The position numbers were made by a program, and so were the translations under genes. This document shows positions 3,581 to 15,177 of a stretch of 29,556 bases of DNA, piece by piece (positions within the stretch are counted from its first letter, which is position 1; each line of letters begins with the position of its first letter). This DNA comes from a virus: the IMG/VR virus record IMGVR_UViG_3300020467_000028, positions 1 through 29,556 of that record; one strand, written 5' to 3'. The notes below the pieces were generated by a model. That model was not told where the DNA came from. It was given only the letters and a program-made list of their open reading frames with translations, and searched no databases.

Positions 3581-4510
3581 TTATTTGATTTTTGTAGTGT
3601 CGTCAACAGATTTGACAGGCCTTGTCGCCTGCCACAAATCATCTTTAAATCGACCAGTGTAACAATACTCTCCAATATGGCTGATAGGATCGTCTATATA
3701 ACCATATACTTTGCCTCCAATATCTGCCCATCTTTGACAAAAACCAAAGTCCTCTCCAAAATAACGCTTAGACTTAGTATCATGTAAGGTGTCAAATAAA
3801 TTATACATGTTATCTTTCTTTTCTTCTTTACCATTAATATTTGTTGGCTGGTATATTTCTAAATGAGGATAAGCTTCAATCATTTTTTCAATAACATTTC
3901 TTTTTATTAACATGCATCCTGTGGGAGCATGAGTAAGTTCAGCTAATCCTTTCTCTACTGTAATAGAATTAGGATCTTTTACTTTAACTGGAAAAGTAAA
4001 ACCAGATCTAGCTAACTCGTCTGCGTTATTAATTGCACCTTCTTTAGTATCTAATCTTCTCCATATCTTATCCCAACTCATCGTCTTCATTGGATATGGA
4101 ACACTAATTATGTCTTTATCAAAGTCTAACATTTTAAAAATAGTTTTAGCTCTAAAATCAATGTCCGAATCTATAAATAATAAATGAGTATATTTATCTT
4201 CATGGTTTAAAAATTCTGCTACACATAAATTTCTACCTTGTGTGACTAATGATGATTTTAATAAAGTAAAACTACATAAAATTCCTTTTTTCCAACAAGC
4301 CTGTTGAAACTTTAAAACTGCTTGACAATAGTGCATGCTTACATCGCTATGACACGGTGTACACACCATGACTTTGTAAGGAGAAACCCCCACATTTATT
4401 TCAGTTACTTTATCTTCTACTTTATTAGTTTTAATTGTTTGATACGTATCGTTATTAGGTGCTTCTTCTTTATCTACATTAAACCATATGGGTTCATTTG
4501 CTTTTTGCAT
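3581..4510 (-). CDS. GT-A-fold glycosyltransferase
   Basis: The 309-aa protein has the layout of a metal-dependent, nucleotide-sugar-using glycosyltransferase. A beta-strand VMVCTPCH (47-54) opens the fold, TQGRNLCVAEFL (90-101) follows, and the DxD metal and sugar-nucleotide motif is FIDSDIDF (112-119, Asp114 and Asp116). Downstream are GEDFGFCQRW (252-261), typical of the acceptor-side acidic motif, and His278. The first 40 residues are a charged extension. Its ATG lies 17 bp inside the upstream glycosyltransferase gene in another frame, so the pair is translated together. It probably acts in the host cytoplasm; the acceptor (virion protein, host glycan or DNA) cannot be told. Confidence 0.85.
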   Translation of the reverse strand: MQKANEPIWFNVDKEEAPNNDTYQTIKTNKVEDKVTEINVGVSPYKVMVCTPCHSDVSMHYCQAVLKFQQACWKKGILCSFTLLKSSLVTQGRNLCVAEFLNHEDKYTHLLFIDSDIDFRAKTIFKMLDFDKDIISVPYPMKTMSWDKIWRRLDTKEGAINNADELARSGFTFPVKVKDPNSITVEKGLAELTHAPTGCMLIKRNVIEKMIEAYPHLEIYQPTNINGKEEKKDNMYNLFDTLHDTKSKRYFGEDFGFCQRWADIGGKVYGYIDDPISHIGEYCYTGRFKDDLWQATRPVKSVDDTTKIK

Positions 4511-5441
4511 TAAGTGCTCCTTGTAAAAATCTAGTCCACACCGACGCCTGTTTAGGCCAAGAATAATATATTTGCGCGTAATTAGATTGAGTTGTTAAAT
4601 GACTATGAATTTGAGGTTCATGTAAAGTTTCAACAGCAGCAGAAATTCCATATGCAAATTTTTCTGCTAAAGCTTTATAATTATTATCGTACGGAATATA
4701 CATAGGAAACTCGGCCCCTGTTTCAAATAGAGCTCCATAATTAGTGGTGATGCAATATAGGCCTGCAGACATAGACTCTAATAAAGATATACATGAAGTC
4801 TCTTCGAAGATACTTGGGTACACATACATATTATAATTTTTTATATTTTCTCTAATATATTCATTTGATCTATATCCAATGTAGTTTACGTTAGGAAGTT
4901 CTCTAGCTTGATCGTAGAGTCCTTGATAGTTATGGTCATTTTTATCCATAAAATCTTTTCCGTAAACTTCACAAGAAGAATAAACATCTAAACTAATTAA
5001 AGGATTTTTAACCAACTGCATCGCACCTAACAATACAGATAAACCACGCCAAGGGGTGTTTTGATGAATAATTTTTACTGGGTCACCTTTTCTGTAATGC
5101 TTTGATTGTTCTATTTTTTCTACGCCATTCTTGATTACGATGCATTTTTCTGTAGGAATACCAAACATCATTCTAAATTTTTCATAGTTCCAATGAGAGT
5201 TGAAGACATACCAATCATACTGTTTGTGATTTCCTCGGTCCTTGAACCAACCATAAAGATTAGGTTGGTCGTAAGAATTTTTTTGCCAAAGTATGTTAAG
5301 CTTATTAGGGTCTATAGGTACTTTACCAGGCACACTAGTGCATATCTGTACTTGATCTAATAATTTTTTATCTACGTATTTATGCAAGAAACCAAGTTGT
5401 AACTCGGTCCCACCTTTAGGGCTTGGGTTTTTTATTATCAT
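4494..5441 (-). CDS. GT-B-fold glycosyltransferase, GT4-like
   Basis: The 315-aa protein opens with KGGTE (9-13), the glycine loop near the start of GT4 enzymes. It has an interdomain HQNTPWRGLSVLLGAM segment (126-141) and the E-x7-E signature Glu214-Glu222 in EETSCISLLESMSAG, the donor-nucleotide site of retaining GT4 enzymes. It is somewhat short for the family (usually about 350-400 aa), mainly through a reduced N-terminal domain. The ATG at 5441 lies 26 bp inside the upstream 63-aa gene. The following GT-A gene overlaps its end by 17 bp. Two different glycosyltransferases in one overlap-coupled unit suggest stepwise building of one glycan. The substrate is unknown. Confidence 0.88.
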   Translation of the reverse strand: MIIKNPSPKGGTELQLGFLHKYVDKKLLDQVQICTSVPGKVPIDPNKLNILWQKNSYDQPNLYGWFKDRGNHKQYDWYVFNSHWNYEKFRMMFGIPTEKCIVIKNGVEKIEQSKHYRKGDPVKIIHQNTPWRGLSVLLGAMQLVKNPLISLDVYSSCEVYGKDFMDKNDHNYQGLYDQARELPNVNYIGYRSNEYIRENIKNYNMYVYPSIFEETSCISLLESMSAGLYCITTNYGALFETGAEFPMYIPYDNNYKALAEKFAYGISAAVETLHEPQIHSHLTTQSNYAQIYYSWPKQASVWTRFLQGALNAKSK

Positions 5442-6231: not shown

Positions 6232-8148
6232 CTATCTCCTTCCGTCTGGTTGAGCATCAAGTCTAAAACTACCATAACGCCAAGTTTCTCCTACAGCGTC
6301 ACATTCTATTTTAATAGATAGCAGTCTAGCTCTTGCTCTCGTATCTACTTTATCAGTGGTCTTTGTTATTGTAAAGGGTCCTAAAGACGAGCTTGCTTGT
6401 GTGTCTGAAGGAAAATCAGATATAAATAGTGTTACCTTAGAATTACCAACTAAAAATTTATAGTCTGGCATAAATCTTTTCATAGACATAAAAAATTCGC
6501 CGTCATCAATATCAAAATCCCCAGATCTAATAAAAGCATTTATAGAAGTTGTCCCTGTGCTATTGACCTGGTCATTACCCACTTCGTGAGCATAATAGAT
6601 ACTAGCACCGTATTTGTTTGTAATTCCTAAAATATCTGGAAATACGGGAGAGGTTGTTGATTCATAGTCTGTTGCATAAGGTTTATTAAATACTCCTTGA
6701 TCTTGATAAGTTGTTCTATCCAATGATGAAGTAGTCCAAGCATTTTCTTGAAAATTATAAGTCACACATCTGTCAATTTGATCAGATCCACTTTTTGGAT
6801 AAAACCAATTTACTTCTGTAAATAAACTATTTGGTGAAGAAAAAATTACATCTGACGCATTAAAATTTAATCCAAGATTTCCATTCTGTGTTGTAAAAAC
6901 AAAATCTTCTACCAAACAAGGTAAGGCTTTTACTGTACCATCATACATAAAAAATCCACCTTCATTAGACATCCAATAGATAGCACCATTTACATAAGAG
7001 GCGGAGTGTTGTGCTAAACATCCACAGTTGGTACCTACCTGTCTAACACTAAATGTAAATGGCGGACCAACAAACTGAATAACATAAGCAGCTTGATCCG
7101 TTAAAACAAAAACATAGTCTTTCCCTTGAATAGCGGCAGTAATTTTATTTCCTGTGTCAAGTCTAAAAGTTCCGGCTGTGTTGGTAGCCGTTGGAGTATA
7201 AGTATTTAAATCTTCTTGGTTTGAAAATCTTACAAACATTGGGTCTTGAGTGGTCGAATCTCCAATAGTTGTTTCAGTTCCAAAATGAAATAAATGTCTG
7301 TCTCTATCGGACACTAACGTAAATCTGCTTGCAGTTGGGTTAGCCGAAGTAGAAAAACCAGAAGTTGATTTAGATGCTCTTATTGTTCGAGCGTTTGTAG
7401 CTCCTGCATTCCACGTAAAAGTTTCACCATTAAATACTGTGGCTACTAACACTTCACCAAAATTATCAAGACTCCAATTTCCTGGATCTAGTACCACAGA
7501 ACTTGTAGATCTTTCCGTTCCCCAAGTAGATGCTCCCCAAGTCGATGTGCTCCAACCATAACCTGTTGTTTGTATAGTGGGTCCAACCTCAACATAAGGA
7601 TTAACAGTTGCAGCTCCAGCAGCCGTCATTCCAGAACCACCTTCGTTCCTTACAGCTTGTATGGTAAATTTATCTACTGTTGGAACGGTTAGTATTTCAT
7701 AAGCCACTTGTAATTCAGCGGGCGTATAATCAGAAGCACCTGTTACTGTAACTCCAGATAAAGTAATATATCTTCCTACTTTTAAATTATGAGATGATTT
7801 ATCTATGGTTATTACATTGGAACCATTAACAGTGGTTAAAGTGCATCCAGAAATAGCTGTATCTAAAGGAGAGATATCATAAAAATCGTTTCCGTAATAC
7901 AAAAACAAACCTTGAGAAGTTCCGATAGCTGCATATTTTTCACCTTTTAAACTAGTAAAAGCTACTTGAGCTCTAGCTGCTCCGGGTAATGTTTTTGATG
8001 AAGCTGTAAGTTGGGACCAACCTCCTATTTTTTCAGGTGCTGTATATCTAAAACGCACAAAATCTCCATCCACCCATTTTCCAGGAAGGGCTGAAGGGAC
8101 ACCTTGTTTGTTGAATCCAGCTGCAAAATCTACTTTTTTTAAGGCCAT
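6232..8148 (-). CDS. P22 gp10-like packaged-DNA stabilisation / tail hub protein
   Basis: The 638-aa protein starts at ATG 8148 (MALKKVDFAAGFNKQGVPSA). An upstream in-frame TTG would add a poor hydrophobic leader and was not used. The body reads as repeated beta-strands, as in the beta-propeller-like gp10 of P22: YVFVLTDQAAYVIQFVG, then a Cys-containing segment (VGTNCGCLAQ), SNEGGFFMYDG, and a C-terminal beta domain ending RLDAQPDGRR. An inserted module at about residues 85-175 (NLKVGRYITLSGVT, DKFTIQAV) resembles short beta modules found in many phage fibres. A WG-x-STWG motif occurs near residue 205. P22 gp10 closes the portal channel and carries the tail; I infer the same here. Confidence 0.72.
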   Translation of the reverse strand: MALKKVDFAAGFNKQGVPSALPGKWVDGDFVRFRYTAPEKIGGWSQLTASSKTLPGAARAQVAFTSLKGEKYAAIGTSQGLFLYYGNDFYDISPLDTAISGCTLTTVNGSNVITIDKSSHNLKVGRYITLSGVTVTGASDYTPAELQVAYEILTVPTVDKFTIQAVRNEGGSGMTAAGAATVNPYVEVGPTIQTTGYGWSTSTWGASTWGTERSTSSVVLDPGNWSLDNFGEVLVATVFNGETFTWNAGATNARTIRASKSTSGFSTSANPTASRFTLVSDRDRHLFHFGTETTIGDSTTQDPMFVRFSNQEDLNTYTPTATNTAGTFRLDTGNKITAAIQGKDYVFVLTDQAAYVIQFVGPPFTFSVRQVGTNCGCLAQHSASYVNGAIYWMSNEGGFFMYDGTVKALPCLVEDFVFTTQNGNLGLNFNASDVIFSSPNSLFTEVNWFYPKSGSDQIDRCVTYNFQENAWTTSSLDRTTYQDQGVFNKPYATDYESTTSPVFPDILGITNKYGASIYYAHEVGNDQVNSTGTTSINAFIRSGDFDIDDGEFFMSMKRFMPDYKFLVGNSKVTLFISDFPSDTQASSSLGPFTITKTTDKVDTRARARLLSIKIECDAVGETWRYGSFRLDAQPDGRR

Positions 8149-8191
8149 AAATATGTTATATAGCAGTTTAATAATTAATGAAAGATACAAA
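8149..8191. promoter_or_regulatory. Divergent 43-bp intergenic region, candidate bidirectional promoter
   Basis: This is the only gap between the minus-strand gp10-like gene and the first plus-strand oxygenase gene. It is almost all A/T and contains TATATAG and TTTAATAATT, either of which could act as a -10 element; no convincing -35 element is seen. Since the plus-strand genes oppose all transcription around them, a promoter must lie here or just inside the gp10-like gene. Its role is inferred from layout. Confidence 0.35.
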
Positions 8192-8749
8192 ATGAAAACA
8201 ATAATGCTAGATCAGGTGCTTTCTCAAAAAGAATTGTTTTATATGTACAAACAAATCACGAGTAGTCATAACTGGGTAATGAATTGCGCATCGGGACCAC
8301 ATGAGGGTTTTATGTCCGGGCCAGCTTTAATAGTTAAAGACAATAATGGTTATGTTAACAATTATCCGTTATGTCTTTGGGGCCAAACTTTGGTTTATAG
8401 AATAGCAAAAATATTAGAGGACAAAAAAATAGGTATACCGACAGAATTAAAAAGAATGTGGTTTAATGCAACATACCACGGTAAAAAAACTCAACACTGG
8501 TTACATCAAGATGATATGGTCACATCTCATTCAAAAACAATTTTATTATTTATGACTCCTCTTTGGCAACCAGATTGGCGAGGTTCATTTTTTGTAGACG
8601 GAGAAGAATTTAAATTTAAACCAGGAAATGCAGTGATACTAGACTCACAAGAATTTCATACAGGTGAATCGGTTGAGTCAGAAACTCATAACTGGCAAAG
8701 GGTAACTTGTAATATAATAGTAAGACATGCTGATGATACACGTGTTTGA
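8192..8749 (+). CDS. 2-oxoglutarate/Fe(II) oxygenase 1 of cassette
   Basis: The 185-aa protein is read from ATG 8192 (MKTIMLDQVLSQKELFYMYK); an upstream in-frame ATG at 8108 lies inside the opposing gene. The jelly-roll metal site is complete: His105-Gln-Asp107, distal His156 and 2-oxoglutarate-binding Arg170, with the usual FKPGNAVIL strand just before the distal His. Such enzymes couple decarboxylation of 2-oxoglutarate to hydroxylation or related oxidation of a substrate, using Fe(II) and O2. It is the first gene of a six-gene plus-strand array, overlapping the second by 23 bp. The substrate is unknown. Confidence 0.85.
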   Translation: MKTIMLDQVLSQKELFYMYKQITSSHNWVMNCASGPHEGFMSGPALIVKDNNGYVNNYPLCLWGQTLVYRIAKILEDKKIGIPTELKRMWFNATYHGKKTQHWLHQDDMVTSHSKTILLFMTPLWQPDWRGSFFVDGEEFKFKPGNAVILDSQEFHTGESVESETHNWQRVTCNIIVRHADDTRV

Positions 8750-9347
8750 AAGTTTAGCTCCTACTAATTTTTTTAGTCCCTTTTATAAATATTTTATGTA
8801 TGAAAACATGTCTGATATAGACATAGAAAAATTAAAAAGTCATATTTTAAATATAGAAAAAGACATTATAAAAAATACAACAGCAGAGGGAGACGGTCGA
8901 ACTGGGCTAGGTAAAAAAAGTCTTACTAGTCGACATATGTCGTTTAATTTATTTGATTCAGATGAGACTATTTTTTTAAAAGACAACATCAAAGAAAATT
9001 TAAAATTGTTTTTTAAAGAATTAAAAATACCAATGCCTAAAAAAATTTACGGTAAATGTTGGGCCAATGTAATGAGGGAAGAAGAACAAATTAAAAGACA
9101 TAGACATACGGTAGAAAATACTTCTTTTCTAAGCGGACATCTTTGTGTGGAAATAAATAAAACTGGTACTTATTACGTAAATCCTTTTGACGATACAGCG
9201 TTTAAATCAGAAAACAAACCGGGTAGAATAACAATATTTCCATCGTGGATTGAGCATTACACTGATGTTGCATCCTCAAGACGAATTACTGTAGCTTTTG
9301 ATTTAACCTTACAACCCATTGAGAATAGTAATTTTGTATTAATATAA
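8727..9347 (+). CDS. 2OG/Fe(II) oxygenase-like protein 2 (HxH type)
   Basis: The 206-aa protein starts at ATG 8727, or ATG 8733 two codons on; both overlap the previous gene. The C-terminal half has the double-stranded beta-helix pattern of the putative oxygenase group with an H-x-H proximal motif: RHRH with His125 and His127, LSGHLCVEI, a strand with GRITIFPSWIEHYT carrying His177, and SSRRITVAFDL with Arg186. The N-terminal 100 residues are helical and charged. In this subgroup H-x-H replaces H-x-D, from family memory, so it is probably active. It lies directly before gene 3 with no spacer. Confidence 0.78.
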   Translation: MLMIHVFESLAPTNFFSPFYKYFMYENMSDIDIEKLKSHILNIEKDIIKNTTAEGDGRTGLGKKSLTSRHMSFNLFDSDETIFLKDNIKENLKLFFKELKIPMPKKIYGKCWANVMREEEQIKRHRHTVENTSFLSGHLCVEINKTGTYYVNPFDDTAFKSENKPGRITIFPSWIEHYTDVASSRRITVAFDLTLQPIENSNFVLI

Positions 9348-9896
9348 ATGAATTATTTAGAAGCAATTGTTGAAATTAAAAATGTAATAGAAAATGATTT
9401 TAATAATAGAATTATTTCTTTAATTAAAAAAAGAGCTACAAAAAATTTATTAATAGGAGAAGATAAATTGAATACTGAAACAAGAAATGTAAAAGGTTAT
9501 CAATTAGATTTTACCAGCCCCACCAATTTGTTTTACTGGAACTATGTAAAACAGGAAATAACTAGACTGTACAGTTTTTACAAAGCTAAATTTCCAATGA
9601 TGAAAAGTAACAAAATAAACCAAATAGATTTATTAAAATATTCAGTCGGGGGTAAGTATGAAGTTCATACTGATCACTTCACCACTAGTGTCAGAAATTT
9701 AAGTGTAATAATAAATTTGAATGAAGGATATGAGGGTGGTGATCTTGTATTTACTAATCAGCAACAAAAAGAAGTAAAAAGAATGAAACTTGGAAAAGGA
9801 TCTATAGTTTTTTTTCCAAGTAATTTTATGTACCCACATAGTATAGAACCAATAACAAAAGGAGTTAGATATAGTATAGTGTCATGGCTCCAGTAA
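9348..9896 (+). CDS. 2OG/Fe(II) oxygenase 3, prolyl-4-hydroxylase-like
   Basis: The 182-aa protein is the most classical member of the array. It has KYSVGGKYEVHTDH with His107 and Asp109, then LSVIINLNEGYEGGDLVF, then GSIVFFPSNFMYPHSI with distal His164, and GVRYSIVSWL with Arg174. The GGDL-V-F strand and the final SIVSWL strand are hallmarks of the P4H-like group, whose members hydroxylate prolyl or related residues. The ATG follows the previous stop with no spacing. About 100 N-terminal residues form helices before the catalytic fold. A hydroxylase reaction is well supported; the substrate is not known. Confidence 0.88.
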   Translation: MNYLEAIVEIKNVIENDFNNRIISLIKKRATKNLLIGEDKLNTETRNVKGYQLDFTSPTNLFYWNYVKQEITRLYSFYKAKFPMMKSNKINQIDLLKYSVGGKYEVHTDHFTTSVRNLSVIINLNEGYEGGDLVFTNQQQKEVKRMKLGKGSIVFFPSNFMYPHSIEPITKGVRYSIVSWLQ

Positions 9897-10396
9897 ATTT
9901 TAAAATTATAAAAAACTTTTTTTCACAAGAAGAATTAAATATATTACAACCTTATTGTTATAATAAATTAGACTCTAATAAAGGGTATCTATTGGATACT
10001 CAATCTTTTTCTCCTGCATGGTACAAAGATTCTTTAATGACTTCGTTCTTAGATCTTAAGCTAAACTTAATTCAACAAGAAACAGGTTTAGAGCTACTTC
10101 CAACCTATGCTTATTGGAGATATTATATTTTTGGAGCAACATTAAAAAAACATTTGGATAGACCTTCTTGTGAAGTATCCATAACTGCTTGTATAAAAAA
10201 ATATGATAAGTGGCCTTTTATAATAGAGAATAATATTTTTGAATTACAAGAAGGGGATGGTCTATTATACGCTGGTTGTGAACAACAACATGGAAGACCA
10301 GGAGTTTATAAAGGTGATGGAATGGCACAAGTTTTTTTTCATTATGTAAATAAATATGGACCCTACAAAAATTATGCTTACGATAAGAAACAATGA
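9884..10396 (+). CDS. 2OG/Fe(II) oxygenase-like protein 4
   Basis: The 170-aa protein overlaps gene 3 by 13 bp. It has LKKHLDRPSCEVSITACI with His90-Leu-Asp92, then a conserved-looking LQEGDGLLYAGCEQQHGRPG with distal His136. The Arg normally found 10-14 residues after the distal His is absent: Gln149 and His153 lie in that strand (AQVFFHYVN), and Arg138 is nearer. Either Arg138 or another side chain binds the 2-oxoglutarate carboxylate, or the chemistry differs. Proteins with this HLDR-x-S-C-E start and YAG-x-E-x-x-H-x-R end are seen in phages and marine bacteria, from memory. Confidence 0.75.
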   Translation: MAPVNFKIIKNFFSQEELNILQPYCYNKLDSNKGYLLDTQSFSPAWYKDSLMTSFLDLKLNLIQQETGLELLPTYAYWRYYIFGATLKKHLDRPSCEVSITACIKKYDKWPFIIENNIFELQEGDGLLYAGCEQQHGRPGVYKGDGMAQVFFHYVNKYGPYKNYAYDKKQ

Positions 10397-10986
10397 TTAG
10401 TATACTAAATAAAAATAATCAGTTAGGTGAACAAAAAAATTCCCTAAAAATTACTTACCCCAGAACAATAGATATAATATTCGGAAACTACCCATACCCT
10501 GATGTGGTGCATAATTTTATTTTAGATATTAAAAATAATTTAGACCCTAATTTAAAAAACTATACAAACGTTAAGGGTGGTATGACAGATTGGAATTACT
10601 TTATAGACAAACCTAATTTTGTAAATTTTATAACCTATTTAATTAATAAACATCAAGCCAATCACCCAGATGTGTTTCGTCACTTTCTTGAAAGAAAAAC
10701 TGTACACAATGCTTGGGGCAATGAAATAAAAAAAGGAGACAGTTTGAATCCTCATCATCATCATTGCTGGCATGGAATACTATATTTAACAAAAGGTTGT
10801 GATTTGATTTTACCTGAATTAAATATAAAAATAACTCCTGAGCCTGGTGATTATTATTTGTTCCCGCCTTATATTTTTCATGGTTTTGATCCTGTTGAAG
10901 AGGATGAAAAAAGATATAGTCTTATATTCAACATTGTTGAAAAAAATGGATTTGACTACGACAACAAGCTTCAAGGTAATATATGA
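10393..10986 (+). CDS. 2OG/Fe(II) oxygenase-like protein 5 (His-cluster type)
   Basis: The 197-aa protein overlaps gene 4 by 4 bp (ATGA). Its metal site is unusual: four consecutive His (121-124) in NPHHHHCWHGILYL, followed by the distal His163 in YYLFPPYIFHGFDP and Arg174 in KRYSLIFNI. The order strand, EPGDYYLFPPYIFHG, Arg-x-Ser-x-x-x-Asn matches the putative oxygenase group with an H-x-H metal motif. Which two of the four His bind iron cannot be read. The first 90 residues are a helical N-terminal region. It could also be a cupin without 2-oxoglutarate use, but the Arg in the last strand favours an oxygenase. Confidence 0.75.
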   Translation: MISILNKNNQLGEQKNSLKITYPRTIDIIFGNYPYPDVVHNFILDIKNNLDPNLKNYTNVKGGMTDWNYFIDKPNFVNFITYLINKHQANHPDVFRHFLERKTVHNAWGNEIKKGDSLNPHHHHCWHGILYLTKGCDLILPELNIKITPEPGDYYLFPPYIFHGFDPVEEDEKRYSLIFNIVEKNGFDYDNKLQGNI

Positions 10987-11555
10987 GTGAAAAAACGATA
11001 TCCATGCAAAATCACATAGGAATTTGTGATAATTATATTTCTAAAACAAAGTGTAATAAAGTAATTGAGTATTTTAAGAAAAAAGCAGCCTTTGGAGAGG
11101 CTTATCAAAGACTTCAAACAGAAAAAGTATCTCTTCTTGAAAAGAATGATACATCAGTAACCGTAGACACCTGGGTGGATGATTTTAAAGAATTATTTGT
11201 AAACTTTGATTTGGCTTTGAGAAGGTATGTAGATAACACAGGTTTAAAGAATTTTTATAGTTCATTCAAAATTGTTCCCATGAAAATACAACAAACTCTT
11301 CCAGGACAAGGTTATCACACTTGGCATATAGAACACGGAGAATCAAGAGACGCAGCAAACAGAGTAATAGTTTACACAATATATTTAAATAATGTTGAAG
11401 AGGGTGGCGAGACTGAATTTTTACATCAATCAGTTAGAGTAAAACCAAAAAGTGGTAGAATCGTTTTTTGGCCTGCTGGTTACCCTTATGTGCACAGAGG
11501 CAATCCTCCTCTTGAAGGAGAAAAATATATTATGACAGGTTGGTTAAATTGTTAA
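10983..11555 (+). CDS. 2OG/Fe(II) oxygenase-like protein 6 (HxE, P4H-like)
   Basis: The 190-aa protein overlaps gene 5 by 4 bp and ends the array. It has a P4H-like layout: PGQGYHTWHIEHGE with His115-Ile-Glu117, RVIVYTIYLNNVEEGGETEF, SGRIVFWPAGYPYVHRG with His171, and KYIMTGWL with Lys181. Glu stands where most relatives have Asp, and Lys replaces Arg as the 2-oxoglutarate ligand, the latter being usual in prolyl-4-hydroxylases. The acidic residue is conserved in charge, so iron binding is plausible. The stop codon lies inside the end of a gene on the opposite strand (12-bp overlap). Confidence 0.85.
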   Translation: MSEKTISMQNHIGICDNYISKTKCNKVIEYFKKKAAFGEAYQRLQTEKVSLLEKNDTSVTVDTWVDDFKELFVNFDLALRRYVDNTGLKNFYSSFKIVPMKIQQTLPGQGYHTWHIEHGESRDAANRVIVYTIYLNNVEEGGETEFLHQSVRVKPKSGRIVFWPAGYPYVHRGNPPLEGEKYIMTGWLNC

Positions 11556-12050
11556 TTCATTGTAAAATAAACTTGTAGTTGTTAATTCATTCATAAAATT
11601 TTCTCCAATGAAATCTTCTACATTTTTATACATGCCTTTAAGATATGTATAAGCAGGTTGATAATCTTCTGAATTATCTAAAATTATATTTGCTTTAGTA
11701 AGACATGCTTCACAACACATAGATGCTATAAAACCTCTTGATATAATGTTAGGATTATTATCAATTAATACGTAGTCACTATTTTTTATAAAATTTCTGT
11801 AGTTTCCATACATATAAAAATCTTCACGCATTTTTAACATATGAACATTTTTTAATTTTTCAGAATTAATTAAATCTATCCACTCTTGGTCATGTTCAAA
11901 AGAAAAAACATTTTTAAATTTTTTACTAAAATAAATTGTAGATTTTCCTGCTCCAAACTCAACCATTGTTTTTGAAGATAAATCTTTTGTACTCAACCAA
12001 TCTACAAATGGTTTTGATAAGTATGGTATTATTAAATCTTTGTTTTCCAC
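11544..12050 (-). CDS. Class I SAM-dependent methyltransferase-like protein
   Basis: The 168-aa protein starts at GTG 12050, preceded by GAGG four bases upstream. Residues 30-38 form a motif I (VEFGAGKST), followed by the acidic end of strand 2 in FSFEHDQEW (Glu52), and YVLIDNNP (93-100) in the place of motif IV, so it has a Rossmann fold like class I methyltransferases. At 168 aa it is short, with no obvious extra substrate domain. It lies tail-to-tail with the oxygenase array, sharing 12 bp. It could methylate the same target or a sugar. The catalytic assignment is moderate; a related fold without methyl transfer is possible. Confidence 0.65.
   Translation of the reverse strand: MENKDLIIPYLSKPFVDWLSTKDLSSKTMVEFGAGKSTIYFSKKFKNVFSFEHDQEWIDLINSEKLKNVHMLKMREDFYMYGNYRNFIKNSDYVLIDNNPNIISRGFIASMCCEACLTKANIILDNSEDYQPAYTYLKGMYKNVEDFIGENFMNELTTTSLFYNELTI
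11549..11591. repeat. 13-bp direct repeat at the cassette's 3' junction
   Basis: The 13-mer TTGTTAATTCATT occurs at 11549-11561 and again at 11579-11591. The first copy includes the stop codons of both converging genes. On the minus strand the copies give the repeated residues NELT near the methyltransferase-like C-terminus. It might be a small duplication or a recombination scar. Confidence 0.6.
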
Positions 12051-12074: not shown

Positions 12075-12491
12075 TTAAGAGGAAGAATAAGAGGTAGGTC
12101 TTGGACCTTTTCTAGCAATTTGATCCGCTTCACTTTCTGTAGATTCTAACACAGCATCTGTTCCTTCACCTGACCAGACTTCTATGACATCATCATCCCA
12201 CTGTTTTTGTAAAGATGCTAAATGCAAAGAGTCCCATTTAGTGGTAAAGTCTAAAATATCACCTAAGTTTGCATCTTCCCAAGTGGAGTGAGGGGTTTCG
12301 TCTCTATATTCTACCGTGTCAGTTGGATTAGCTGTTCCATATTGAACAGCCCAAATGTTTGAAAATTTAGATTGACTCCAAAAAGAATCGTCAGATATAT
12401 TATATGCAATGCCTTCTGAAGCACCTTCATCATAATTTTTAATTATTTTTTTATCTTCAAATATTATTGTCCATTTTGCGCTTGTCGCCAT
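12075..12491 (-). CDS. Unidentified 138-aa protein in the fibre region
   Basis: The protein starts MATSAKWTIIFEDKKIIKNY and is rich in Trp, Asp, Glu and Ser. It shows alternating short strands and a Trp/Asp-rich stretch (LQKQWDDDVIEVWSGEG), and ends in a low-complexity Ser-rich tail (PTSYSSS). It lacks membrane segments. It follows a tail-collar fibre gene by eight bases, the usual place of a fibre tip or chaperone protein; fibre attachment or assembly is inferred. I do not recognise the family. Confidence 0.7.
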   Translation of the reverse strand: MATSAKWTIIFEDKKIIKNYDEGASEGIAYNISDDSFWSQSKFSNIWAVQYGTANPTDTVEYRDETPHSTWEDANLGDILDFTTKWDSLHLASLQKQWDDDVIEVWSGEGTDAVLESTESEADQIARKGPRPTSYSSS

Positions 12492-12499
12492 AATTTCTC

Positions 12500-13069
12500 C
12501 TATGTCTTAATAATATAAATTATTGTTAAATAAGGTTGAAGAACTGATGTTGCATCACCACTAAAAGTTGCACTCATATTATGAGAGTGACCACCACCAG
12601 AACCTGTACTACCGGTCCCTGCTGGACTAAAAAATTTACTAGATCCAGGAAAAGATTGGTGAAAGTAAGTACCGCCAGTCGTTCCACCTCCAGGGTGACT
12701 GTGTGATGCAAGTTGTGAAGTCGACAAAGTTGCATTGGCAGTCGACCCGCCTACGTTACCTGTAGAAGTAACAGTGTTTGCTCCGCCAGTTGATGCTAAA
12801 GCTTTAGTTCCAGATTTACCCATTGCGACGTTGTCTTGTAAATCAGGTACGTTAAAAGTTGATGCACCATCTCCTGTTCCATAAGTAGTGCTTATGATTG
12901 CAAATAATGCAGAGTAAGTTGATCTTGAAACTGCTTGACCATTACACTCTAAAAAACCTGTTGGCACTGAAGAAGAAGACCACGGCACAATAGTTGCTGT
13001 AGGAATTCCTTCGATACCTGTAAGGTTTGCTCCATCGAAATCGTATTTTGTTGCTTCGTAATTTGACAT
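12500..13069 (-). CDS. Tail-collar domain fibre protein
   Basis: The 189-aa protein carries a recognisable phage tail-collar domain at about residues 23-85. Key features are TIVPWSSSSVPTGFLECNGQ, the S-x-x-x-Y-x-x-L-F pattern and YGTGDGASTFNVPDLQ. This domain is found in short tail fibres and in microcystin-dependent protein-like proteins. The rest is Gly/Ser/His-rich (HSHPGGG, GGGHSHNM), which may bind metal as in T4 short-fibre tips, and ends in a hydrophobic strand. It sits one base after the upstream fibre gene, so the two are probably parts of one adsorption structure. Confidence 0.88.
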   Translation of the reverse strand: MSNYEATKYDFDGANLTGIEGIPTATIVPWSSSSVPTGFLECNGQAVSRSTYSALFAIISTTYGTGDGASTFNVPDLQDNVAMGKSGTKALASTGGANTVTSTGNVGGSTANATLSTSQLASHSHPGGGTTGGTYFHQSFPGSSKFFSPAGTGSTGSGGGHSHNMSATFSGDATSVLQPYLTIIYIIKT

Positions 13070-13070
13070 A

Positions 13071-13772
13071 TTATTTCTCCGTGTAAGTCCATCCTGTTGT
13101 AGCGTCTCCAGAAAAAACTAATGAAAAAGCTGCACCTTGTGTATTTACTACAAGATCAGATGCTGCATTAGCTATATTAGAAGAATTTCTACCAACAGTC
13201 AATGCGTTAGAATTAAAGTCATAACCTTGGTCAACAAAAGAAACCTCGTCACCTGTTGCTGGTGATGCAGGTAGCGTAATTGTTACTCCTCCACCACTTG
13301 TATTTACCAAAAGTTTAGCTCCAGCTTGAACTGTTTCTGCTGCTGAAACCGCTCTCCATTTTCTGTATTCATTTGCTTTTACAACATTAGTTCCGTCAGA
13401 ATATAAAGTGTAACAGTTGCCTTCACATAAAAGAACACCTGTACCTGAAGATGTTTTAAAAGTTAAAGTATTATTTGCGTGATCACATCCATCAATTACT
13501 GTGTATACTTTTTCTATTGAGTCTGGAATAGTGACATTTAAATTAGAAGCTAATGTGCCTGTTAATTTTATAACTTCATTTTTACCATTAGATAAAGCCC
13601 CATTTGTAAAAGTCAGAGCTCTATTAGCATTAGTTACGTTAAAAGTATCATAACCACCAATTGCCTGTTCTAAAATTAATAAGTTTGTATTTGTGATTTG
13701 TCCCCAAGTTCCCGAATTTTCACCGGTCGCTTGTACTGTAAGTTTTAAACTTGCTGATGTTGAATTCGCCAT
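13071..13772 (-). CDS. Tail fibre protein
   Basis: The 233-aa protein begins MANSTSASLKLTVQATGENS and has GTWGQITNTNLLILEQAIGG, a short segment common near the start of phage fibre proteins. The remainder is beta-rich with many Thr, Asn, Gly and Ser and a C-terminal SGDATTGWTY strand. The last ~90 residues resemble a small fibre head of the kind seen repeatedly in marine phages, from memory. Transcription from upstream probably passes a terminator-like hairpin at 13801-13830, which may lower its dose. Receptor contact is inferred. Confidence 0.75.
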   Translation of the reverse strand: MANSTSASLKLTVQATGENSGTWGQITNTNLLILEQAIGGYDTFNVTNANRALTFTNGALSNGKNEVIKLTGTLASNLNVTIPDSIEKVYTVIDGCDHANNTLTFKTSSGTGVLLCEGNCYTLYSDGTNVVKANEYRKWRAVSAAETVQAGAKLLVNTSGGGVTITLPASPATGDEVSFVDQGYDFNSNALTVGRNSSNIANAASDLVVNTQGAAFSLVFSGDATTGWTYTEK

Positions 13773-13800
13773 ATTAAATTCCTTATACCGTTTATTTTAT

Positions 13801-13830
13801 AAAAATAAAGAGTTAGTGTCAAACTCTTTA
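13801..13830 (-). terminator. Intrinsic terminator-like hairpin
   Basis: On the minus strand a 9-bp perfect stem (TAAAGAGTT / AACTCTTTA, 13830-13822 with 13814-13806) encloses a 7-base loop and is followed by five T (13805-13801). The stop codon of the upstream 449-aa gene lies in its 5' arm. The stem is A/T-rich, so termination may be partial. Confidence 0.65.
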
Positions 13831-15177
13831 TGCAACGACTTCCCTCCAGCCAGGAGGATCTATTGGTGCGTTTCCTGTAGGAACTTCATTCCAAATTAAA
13901 GCATTAGCATTATTTAGATTCATAGTCAACCCAAGACCAGTAAATGTTGCTGTAACGTCCGTAAATGCGGTTACTCCGGCTACTTGACTATTTAAAGAAA
14001 CTCCAGTGGTAGGAACAAGAGTTCTTAAATCTATGGTTGCGGTACCTAAACTCGCAGTTAAACCGAATCCTGTTGGAGAGGTAATTACATCTCCTTGATG
14101 TCCTAATTGACCTAATGATAAAATACCAGCATTTCCTTGGATCATCGCATCTGGCGCGGGATCCACTTGGCCCAAAGTCGCCTGAGCTACATTTAGTGTG
14201 TTAAGAGTTAAACTCGCATCTCCTGTTACAGATTGTGGTGCAGCTATGTTAGCTGTCATTCCAAAACCAGTTATAGTCGGTTGAATAGAACTTCCTGGTT
14301 CACCCCAGTCATTATCTCCCCATGCAAGTCTTCCCCAACCTTGTTCATTAAACGCTTCTACAGTACCAATAGCCATTGTGGCTCCAATACCGACTGCCAT
14401 TGCATCAGGACCAGCATCTGCTGTTCCTAAACTATTTGTAAGTGGAAAACCTGTTAGAGTAACTTCTGCTAAACCTGTGGCGACCACAGTATTTAAGGTA
14501 TTTGTAAGTGCAAGACCTGTTGGAGTTACAGTTACATCTCCCTGCATTCCTAAAGTGCCTAAATTTCCTGTTAAAGCATTTCCGGTTGCGATAAGGGTGC
14601 CTGCAATACCCCAAGCTTGTTTTCCCCATTCTACTCTGCCCCAACCATTATTAATTTCTGTGTCCACAGTTGCACTTCCGACATTTGCGGAAAGAGCTTG
14701 ACCTGTAATTTGAATAGTAGGATCAGTTTGATCTCCCCATTGATTAATGCCCCATGTACCGACGTTCCAAGTTTTTCCTGTGGCCACATCCATTAACCCA
14801 CCCATTCCTATTCCGTGAATGTAGCATAGATAATAAAAATCTGGAGCGTTGACATCTATTTCAACGTATCGAGTTGTTGCGGCGTTAAAGGTGCCGACGT
14901 TTAAATAATTAGAAGAACTTGTGGGAGAATCAAGGTAATAAGTTACTCCACTAGAAATAATTCCAGAGGTGCTGGTATTTGTAGAAAAAATTAAAGGGTG
15001 ATTGTCATTAGAAGCATCACTTTGATCAAACCGTAAAGTAGATCCACCAGCCCAGACAATGTTTCCTGGTCCTGTAGAACTTCTTGCGCCATCTACATAA
15101 AAAACATTTCCGGTGCTACCACCGCCGCCATAAAGACTTCCAGTTGCAACGGTAACCGTATAAGTGAAATCCGCCAT
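13828..15177 (-). CDS. Tail/fibre protein with cupredoxin-like N-terminus and repeats
   Basis: The 449-aa protein has two parts. Residues about 1-130 resemble a small cupredoxin: His60 in NDNHPLIF, then Cys118-x2-His121-x3-Met125 in YYLCYIHGIGM, the ligand order of a type 1 copper site. Residues about 135-430 are repetitive: about eleven degenerate copies of a TG-x-x-L-T-x-x-LGT unit, with three WG-x(2-4)-WG spots (near 142-148, 184-193 and 281-288). The last residues are unrelated. No signal peptide is seen. Copper binding is inferred from the ligand order; the repeats suggest a beta fibre shaft. The SD can pair with the sequence after it (see separate entry). Confidence 0.75.
   Translation of the reverse strand: MADFTYTVTVATGSLYGGGGSTGNVFYVDGARSSTGPGNIVWAGGSTLRFDQSDASNDNHPLIFSTNTSTSGIISSGVTYYLDSPTSSSNYLNVGTFNAATTRYVEIDVNAPDFYYLCYIHGIGMGGLMDVATGKTWNVGTWGINQWGDQTDPTIQITGQALSANVGSATVDTEINNGWGRVEWGKQAWGIAGTLIATGNALTGNLGTLGMQGDVTVTPTGLALTNTLNTVVATGLAEVTLTGFPLTNSLGTADAGPDAMAVGIGATMAIGTVEAFNEQGWGRLAWGDNDWGEPGSSIQPTITGFGMTANIAAPQSVTGDASLTLNTLNVAQATLGQVDPAPDAMIQGNAGILSLGQLGHQGDVITSPTGFGLTASLGTATIDLRTLVPTTGVSLNSQVAGVTAFTDVTATFTGLGLTMNLNNANALIWNEVPTGNAPIDPPGWREVVA

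Follow-up and report, generated by a model that had tools for sequence, protein, structure and literature searches.

The DNA analysed here (the window) is the whole 29,556-nucleotide stretch of IMG/VR virus record IMGVR_UViG_3300020467_000028, and its subject is a cassette of six plus-strand open reading frames (ORFs), g1 to g6, lying back to back at positions 8192–11555 between long ORFs on the minus strand. The intergenic spacings from g1 to g6 are −23, 0, −13, −4 and −4 bases, in agreement with a first-pass annotation of the sequence, which had described six consecutive plus-strand genes spaced by −23 to 0 bases in minus-strand surroundings. The cassette almost certainly encodes six distinct proteins of the 2-oxoglutarate (2OG)/Fe(II)-oxygenase fold, and HTVC027P-like phages conserve it at a site that is fixed in position and variable in content:

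8192–8749, plus strand: g1, 185 amino acids (aa), 2OG/Fe(II)-oxygenase fold, motif HxD..H..R
8727–9347, plus strand: g2, 206 aa, 2OG-FeII_Oxy_5 family, motif HxH..H..R
9348–9896, plus strand: g3, 182 aa, 2OG-FeII_Oxy_3 family, motif HxD..H..R
9884–10396, plus strand: g4, 170 aa, 2OG/Fe(II)-oxygenase fold, of a family labelled 'ferrochelatase' in marine phages
10393–10986, plus strand: g5, 197 aa, 2OG-FeII_Oxy_5 family, motif HxH..H..R
10983–11555, plus strand: g6, 190 aa, 2OG-FeII_Oxy_3 family, motif HxE..H..K, in nearly all cassettes

All six proteins have the double-stranded beta-helix fold of 2OG/Fe(II) oxygenases, as the first-pass annotation had proposed, on the evidence of Pfam for g2, g3, g5 and g6 and of AlphaFold models compared with PDB structures for g1 and g4, the two proteins on which the structure check was run. 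Matches above the curated Pfam cut-off join g2 and g5 to PF13759 (E = 1e-9 and 2.2e-8) and g3 and g6 to PF13640 (E = 9.5e-18 and 1.2e-13); g1 and g4 had no Pfam match at E values up to 1. The best PHROG families are phrog_274 for g1 (E = 2e-10), phrog_81 for g2 and g5, phrog_61 for g3 and g6 (E = 7e-44 for g6) and phrog_2954 for g4 (E = 1.2e-39). The g1 model, derived from a 45-sequence alignment, has a mean predicted local distance difference test score (pLDDT) of 84.0, and its best Foldseek match in the PDB is 3dkq (E = 2.6e-6), of the same class of 2OG oxygenases as the matches of g4; a PDB sequence-profile search with g1 gave two hydroxylases (E = 0.32 and 0.97). The name that PHROG and GenBank give to phrog_274, 'DNA endonuclease V', looks wrong for g1, a protein of oxygenase fold; the same family is matched by a protein of phage Mosig (locus L482, 5651–6163).

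Family alignments bear out the proximal H-x-D/E/H motif and distal His that had been read from each protein: conservation is complete in g2 (H125, H127, H177 and R186, each 9/9), g3 (H107, D109, H164 and R174, each 138/138), g4 (H90, D92, H136 and R138, each 125/125) and g5 (H121, H123, H163 and R174, each 85/85), and nearly so in g1 (H105, H156 and R170 in 54/54, D107 in 52/54) and g6 (H115 and H171 in 211/211, E117 in 210/211, K181 in 208/211). The 2-His-1-carboxylate triad (HxD/E..H) is thus present in g1, g3, g4 and g6, and the invariant H-x-H..H of g2 and g5 departs from it. An Arg or Lys some 9–14 residues past the distal His serves in 2OG binding. Such a residue is found in g1, g2, g3, g5 and g6, the five for which it had been claimed; g4 is the exception, its invariant R79 and R138 sitting outside that interval.

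The fold of g4 bears on a label in wide use. What is new here is that the marine-phage 'ferrochelatase' (phrog_2954, the family of g4), which published work takes for a metabolic gene, is by its structural model a protein of oxygenase fold. The model of its 170 residues, from a 94-sequence alignment, has a mean pLDDT of 95.5 and is rich in beta strands; its best Foldseek matches in the PDB are 2OG oxygenases, among them 3dkq (E = 4e-7), 6n1f, PHD2 and P4H (E about 1e-6), and in a structural comparison (VIA) the matches listed reach Z scores of 14.8–16.9 over nearly the full length, the top one (16.9) covering 162 residues at 3.0 Å. Sequence profiles of the PDB gave nothing significant for g4. 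The ferrochelatase Pfam family is absent from the 12 families matched by the 94 g4-family members scanned singly at E values up to 0.1, and Pfam likewise gave no match for the g4-type proteins of phages HTVC008M and Mosig. A chelatase fold consists of two Rossmann-like domains; the best matches of the g4 model are 2OG oxygenases instead, in a search made without an alignment to a ferrochelatase structure. The g4-type protein of Mosig aligns to the g4 family with 99.9% probability and retains HxD and the distal His.

Among 60 of 154 records, many g4 relatives in pelagiphages and cyanophages carry the annotation ferrochelatase and a few are called hypothetical or 2OG. The 'ferrochelatase' of P-SSM2 bears the gene name piuC and the tag T4-GC 28, the tag also borne by a Syn1 gene labelled 2OG-Fe(II) oxygenase, and this shared naming suggests how labels cross. 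No paper correcting the label of phrog_2954 was found in searches confined to open-licence PMC papers. Bacterial homologues of g4 number 63 loci; among six whose ORFs were inspected by eye, two resemble phage DNA and none gave a clue to function in its neighbourhood. The g4-like genes of Lysobacter (L459, L454) adjoin ORFs that resemble mutS and katG by eye.

Auxiliary metabolic genes that shift host 2OG/nitrogen or iron metabolism are the explanation assumed in print. Such a role has been proposed for cyanophages (PMC9602691), iron uptake is discussed with gp73 of HTVC027P (PMC12753301), and 2OG and 'ferrochelatase' genes are reported as enriched in seasonal viruses (PMC11561400, which uses phrog2954); passages of PMC9599517 likewise build on the label, taking g4-type genes as true ferrochelatases. 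For the cassette we consider this explanation improbable: one enzyme would suffice to drain 2OG and six conserved families are found here, the location in the tail module is constant, and the 'ferrochelatase' partner that hinted at iron or haem has, in its model, an oxygenase fold. The oxygenase fold of g4 also undercuts the haem- and iron-metabolism reading of PMC9599517 and PMC11561400.

The window falls with the HTVC027P/HTVC023P-type pelagiphages by sequence comparison, its portal protein being 68.8% identical to that of HTVC027P, 66.5% to that of 023Pt_psg01 and 51.9% to that of HTVC023P, and the gene order of its structural module being that of HTVC027P; a SAR11 host is suggested by these relatives. 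The genes that bound the cassette are as follows:

6232–8148, minus strand: virion structural protein (struct), phrog_3287 (E = 6e-80), homologue of HTVC027P gp75, divergent from g1
11544–12050, minus strand: small gene separating the cassette from the tail genes, possibly methyltransferase-like, weak matches only
12075–12491, minus strand: conserved small protein corresponding to HTVC027P gp71, without a Pfam match
12500–13069, minus strand: phage tail collar protein, PF07484 (E = 8.8e-22)

Seven IMG/VR scans, of which five contributed the best 80 of 279, 458, 476, 88 and 101 relatives, and three phage records yielded 414 loci and records including the window; 257 were kept as non-redundant, and 169 of these, the window and HTVC027P among them, have both flanks. 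Profiles were built for g1–g6 and for three flanking proteins (struct, gp71 and collar). Every one of the 169 loci has at least one oxygenase of families g1–g6 at the site, and g6 is found in 168. Most loci were fetched by way of a cassette gene; only 40 of the 56 struct-seeded loci, the window included, escape this bias, and in these both an oxygenase and g6 are present in 40/40. One family gene occurs in 12 loci, two in 34, three in 64, four in 39, five in 17, six in two and seven in one. Counting further clusters, 642 of 670 2OG genes lie on the strand opposite to struct, and 13 loci including the window have six or more 2OG-type genes in uninterrupted inverted succession, with a maximum of nine. 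In these run lengths clusters C9 (JmjC_2 by Pfam), C20 (PF13759) and C26, which passes the cut-off for DUF6445 but not for 2OG, are counted as 2OG, and the 2OG status of C0, C1, C5–C8 and C14 is taken from profile links and Pfam on one representative each (C1 and C5–C8 pass the cut-off of PF13640 or PF13759, C0 has no match and C14 has a sub-threshold cupin match only). The first-pass annotation would have been refuted had the genes occurred just singly and unrelated in related genomes; instead, the relatives hold rows at the same site, and since they conserve the cassette, a chance arrangement is excluded. More widely, 460 of 50,697 phage records are matched by g6 in tblastn.

Within this fixed frame the contents are reshuffled. 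The 169 loci show 123 distinct gene orders, and of 22 pairs with struct proteins at least 97% identical only five share the same order. One pair is clearly stable, g3 lying immediately before g4 in 86 of 95 g4 cases; g5 and g6 are often adjacent in both orders (40 and 17 times), and the remaining neighbours vary. The most frequent gaps among 563 cassette junctions are −4 (128) and −13 (86). The 169 intervals hold 777 genes in all, 678 of them from g1–g6 or other 2OG-type clusters and 99 not of these or unassigned, unassigned ORFs of up to about 330 bases having been left out of the clustering. The site looks like recombining cargo, a fixed expression site with swappable enzymes, rather than one inherited or acquired pathway. 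The first-pass annotation had offered a fixed multistep pathway or a panel of enzymes with different targets; the 123 orders, with only g3–g4 clearly stable, speak against the former, and the mixing of families between genomes fits the latter.

The same annotation had called the six genes divergent paralogues, a description that fits no more than loosely. In profile comparisons of the families g3 and g6 are strongly linked and g2–g5 and g1–g3 less so; g1–g4 and g3–g5 are borderline and the other pairs are linked hardly or not at all. Recent tandem duplication as the origin of the row is unsupported, most family pairs being linked weakly or not by profile. Judged from codon substitutions, g1 and g3–g6 are under purifying selection, with median omega of 0.12–0.18 for g1, g3, g4, g5 and g6 (9, 88, 63, 28 and 739 pairs), beside medians of 0.09 (struct), 0.17 (gp71) and 0.23 (collar) in the flanks; for g2 no pair could be used. 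Among marine viral genes, the group with oxygenases and 'ferrochelatases' is given the highest median pN/pS in the portion of PMC6832022 drawn on here, a measure other than omega that points to more within-population variation.

Acquisition as a unit, proposed earlier from an A-richer composition than the flanks, does not follow from a base-composition check. The cassette is indeed low in GC (0.27–0.34, against 0.32–0.43 for 11 of 12 other genes measured, the exception being the small gene at 11544–12050 with 0.24), but its third-position GC of 0.16–0.25 overlaps the 0.14–0.33 of the other genes, so that the high A content is put down to the composition of the proteins and gives no sign of foreign descent. 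Foreign acquisition judged by base composition is accordingly unsupported, third-position GC resembling that of the tail genes, and the 123 gene orders also argue against transfer of an intact unit. The product of the small gene at 11544–12050 matches the Pfam family RrnaAD and the NCBIfam Erm/KsgA models below cut-off, with unrelated NCBIfam models scoring similarly or better, and its cluster has four members including the window. In gp71, Asn replaces the His of the conserved motif YRDETPHS in 10 of 165 loci, and each of the ten has g1; this association, the one that stood out, is doubtful, as four of the ten look misaligned and the other six look like one lineage.

A conserved element lies between struct and the cassette, pointing away from struct:

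8156–8184, plus strand: conserved leader (likely promoter and 5' untranslated region) before the first cassette gene
8178–8195, plus strand: possible 5-codon leader ORF, its TGA overlapping the g1 start (ATGA)

The leader is a conserved AT-rich block ending in AATGAAAG; the element at 8156–8184 is the single match in the window at up to three mismatches, and no match occurred in 100 shuffles. It was anchored in 138 loci, and a position-weight scan placed it at the cassette in 142 of 169 loci, counting matches on the cassette strand no more than 320 bases from the struct start, with 27 lacking it and nine matches elsewhere in 1.62 Mb. Since the weights were trained on the same sites, the figure of 142 is in part built into the scan, which is not true of the rarity elsewhere. 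Of the nine outlying matches at least three (L021, L356, L338) directly precede the first inverted gene where this lies further from struct, and one, in L223, falls within a g3 gene and is probably spurious. The leader usually precedes whichever gene is first. Its ATG AAA opens a short MK frame of 4–7 codons, whose stop lies at −5, −2 or +1 of the ATG of the first gene in 76 of 122 loci, a count that kinship among the loci inflates (of the 169, 36 have no leader in range and 11 no in-frame ATG). This frame is possibly a coupled leader peptide, though the GAAAG in the leader may be a plain ribosome-binding element instead. From these features we infer that the leader would be a dedicated promoter with coupled translation.

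Genes of other kinds ride in the same interval and bear on what the cassette does. A carbamoyltransferase cluster occurs in 23 of the 169 cassettes, a sulfotransferase-like cluster in 15 and a second in 2, and methyltransferase clusters in 16; these identities come from Pfam on one representative each, some clusters being named by eye, and of the sulfotransferase representatives one is above and one below the Pfam cut-off. A Trp halogenase lies inside or near cassettes (L335, 5999–7420; PF04820, E = 1e-88), and contig L452 has two consecutive ORFs at 12094–15160 that look halogenase-like by eye. Carbamoyl-, sulfo- and methyltransferases are typical sugar-tailoring enzymes, and a glycosyltransferase with a phrog_1574 neighbour lies in the tail module at 3581–5441; the module likewise contains a gene annotated as glycosyltransferase in HTVC027P and HTVC023P. 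The cassette might on these grounds act on a glycan or lipid of the SAR11 surface, hiding receptors from superinfecting phages or changing how progeny adsorb, which we regard as possible but doubtful: 678 of the 777 interval genes are 2OG-type, no nucleotide-sugar pathway was recognised among the rest, and a lytic cycle leaves little time for surface remodelling. The combination of Trp halogenase, carbamoyltransferase, methyltransferase and 2OG genes also resembles natural-product tailoring, and g3 has a weak, sub-cut-off match to a peptide-maturation 2OG family, as if a small molecule or peptide were built or tailored during infection. We give this little credence, the gene content being too changeable for a single product and no backbone-making gene or precursor peptide having been recognised in the window.

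Rows of oxygenases beside tail genes are already known, including from cultured T4-like phages. In HTVC027P (MN698241, cultured on SAR11), gp72–gp74 occupy the same site (between gp71 and gp75) in the same inversion behind the same leader and include homologues of g5 and g6 (g5 is 73% identical to gp74), but the row has three genes, not six, the third, gp72, belonging to cluster C5, whose representative matches PF13759. In the more distant HTVC023P and 023Pt_psg01, g3- and g4-type genes lie upstream of the struct homologue but share the strand of the structural genes, which makes the inversion a trait of the HTVC027P side. HTVC008M (NC_020484), an unrelated T4-like myovirus with distant sequences, has an inverted row, gp068–gp072, of four 2OG genes and a g4-type 'ferrochelatase' between head–tail and baseplate genes. 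Mosig EXVC030M (MT647606) has a row of probably six near the tail fibre, four labelled 2OG, one a g4-type 'ferrochelatase' and one the phrog_274 'DNA endonuclease V'; it is not inverted relative to the genes shown, and the fold of its sixth member is taken from the phrog_274 match shared with g1, to whose family alignment hhalign gave no match (probability 2.9). In Mosig the row is followed by genes for a putative haem oxygenase and for phycocyanobilin:ferredoxin oxidoreductase (L482, 7972–9208). S-SM2 has a four-gene row between tail fibres, one gene of which is labelled ferrochelatase.

In print, HTVC023P-type phages are credited with eight non-orthologous 2OG genes, nearby 'although not adjacent' (PMC9599517), and cyanophage S-SCSM1 with 24 in one larger genome (PMC9602691); as far as the parts of these papers drawn on here go, these phages resemble the window in having many non-orthologous 2OG genes each and 'ferrochelatase' beside them. 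The Phold paper assigns marine-phage PHROG 61 proteins, described as EGLN3-like, a prolyl-hydroxylase-like fold, its relevant passages mentioning neither phrog_2954 nor the cassette (PMC12774648). Fe(II) oxygenases are counted with tail fibres among the variable genes of metaviromic islands, under host recognition, in an account whose relevant section does not describe the row architecture (PMC3909814). The earlier statement that six in a row had not been described is thus half right: co-located non-orthologous 2OG genes are printed (PMC9599517), and rows stand in the GenBank records of HTVC008M and Mosig, where some of the genes are labelled as something else. What appears to be new is the fixed site with its leader and the reshuffling there, being absent from the descriptions in those portions of PMC9599517 and PMC9602691.

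Tail-module location, fold and turnover together lead us to place hydroxylation of tail adhesins first and tailoring of the host surface second. That the substrate is the phage's own tail adhesins is a guess, to which we assign a probability of roughly 0.4. The leader would express, during infection, any enzymes encoded behind it, with overlapping stop and start codons as an aid; the enzymes would add hydroxyl groups to adhesin side chains (collar and fibre), or oxidise them in some other way, before assembly; and swapping enzyme genes would quickly alter the chemistry of the receptor-binding surface with the adhesin fold unchanged. The collar protein is possibly the receptor-binding tip. Among 16 annotated phage regions, hand-picked from hit lists and not random, five have at least three adjacent 2OG-type genes (HTVC027P, HTVC023P, HTVC008M, S-SM2 and Mosig), some row members being counted on the strength of their cluster or of an annotation such as ferrochelatase (023Pt_psg01 is similar, with one row gene unlabelled), and all five rows, like that of the window, lie in structural, tail or neck modules. 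Fewer or scattered 2OG genes lie at the tail fibres in P-SSM2, Syn1 and S-CAM4, those of Syn1 and S-CAM4 around gp12 and the tail chaperone. The nearest solved folds include the protein hydroxylases PHD2 and P4H, a shared fold showing no substrate. In covariation tests on 121 loci, cassette content followed collar similarity beyond struct similarity weakly (partial Mantel r = 0.18, 0/300 permutations).

Several observations weigh against adhesin hydroxylation. Some 2OG genes stand by uvsY/uvsW, recA or replication genes, away from tail fibres: those of syn9 and S-RIM2 are near a tail-completion gene and uvsW, that of Melnitz adjoins recA, and that of ACG-2014f lies near replication genes; the regions viewed in S-RIM32, S-H9-1 and a Rhizobium phage have no annotated tail gene nearby. 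The per-family collar test was inconsistent (g1, g4 and g5 weakly positive; g2, C1 and C2 negative; g3, C0 and C3 without a clear sign), and a scan residue by residue turned up associations in each of the three flanks, the control protein struct included, so that the covariation tests are too weak for choosing among readings. The H-x-H of g2 and g5 leaves their chemistry open, the tail-side location may merely reflect a tolerant hypervariable region, and the carbamoyl-, sulfo- and methyltransferases of relatives' cassettes would suit sugars as well. The passage on the virion proteome of S-SCSM1 (PMC9602691) names no 2OG enzyme and neither helps nor excludes the adhesin proposal.

The genes beside uvsY/uvsW or recA in some phages are also what might be expected of enzymes that modify or repair DNA or RNA, and AlkB structures are among the g1 fold matches and PF09859, an oxygenase on damaged DNA, among the sub-cut-off matches of g3. 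This explanation is very unlikely for the cassette: none of the six proteins has a nucleic-acid-type 2OG Pfam match above cut-off, DNA-modification partner genes were not recognised in the cassette, and in the regions viewed the repair-side genes and the rows occupy separate sites.

The data presented above lead us to propose, tentatively, that the site is an 'expression site' for adhesin chemistry, in which the leader and its coupled mini-ORF would drive a combinatorial, recombining row of hydroxylases, with an occasional halogenase or carbamoyl-, sulfo- or methyltransferase, that marks the tail tip with variable post-translational modifications; host recognition would then be diversified enzymatically, the adhesin gene remaining unchanged. 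2OG oxygenases are common accessory genes of marine phages whose role is unestablished in the literature consulted here, and one fixed, leader-preceded, recombining site offers a defined place for testing that role in cultured HTVC027P.

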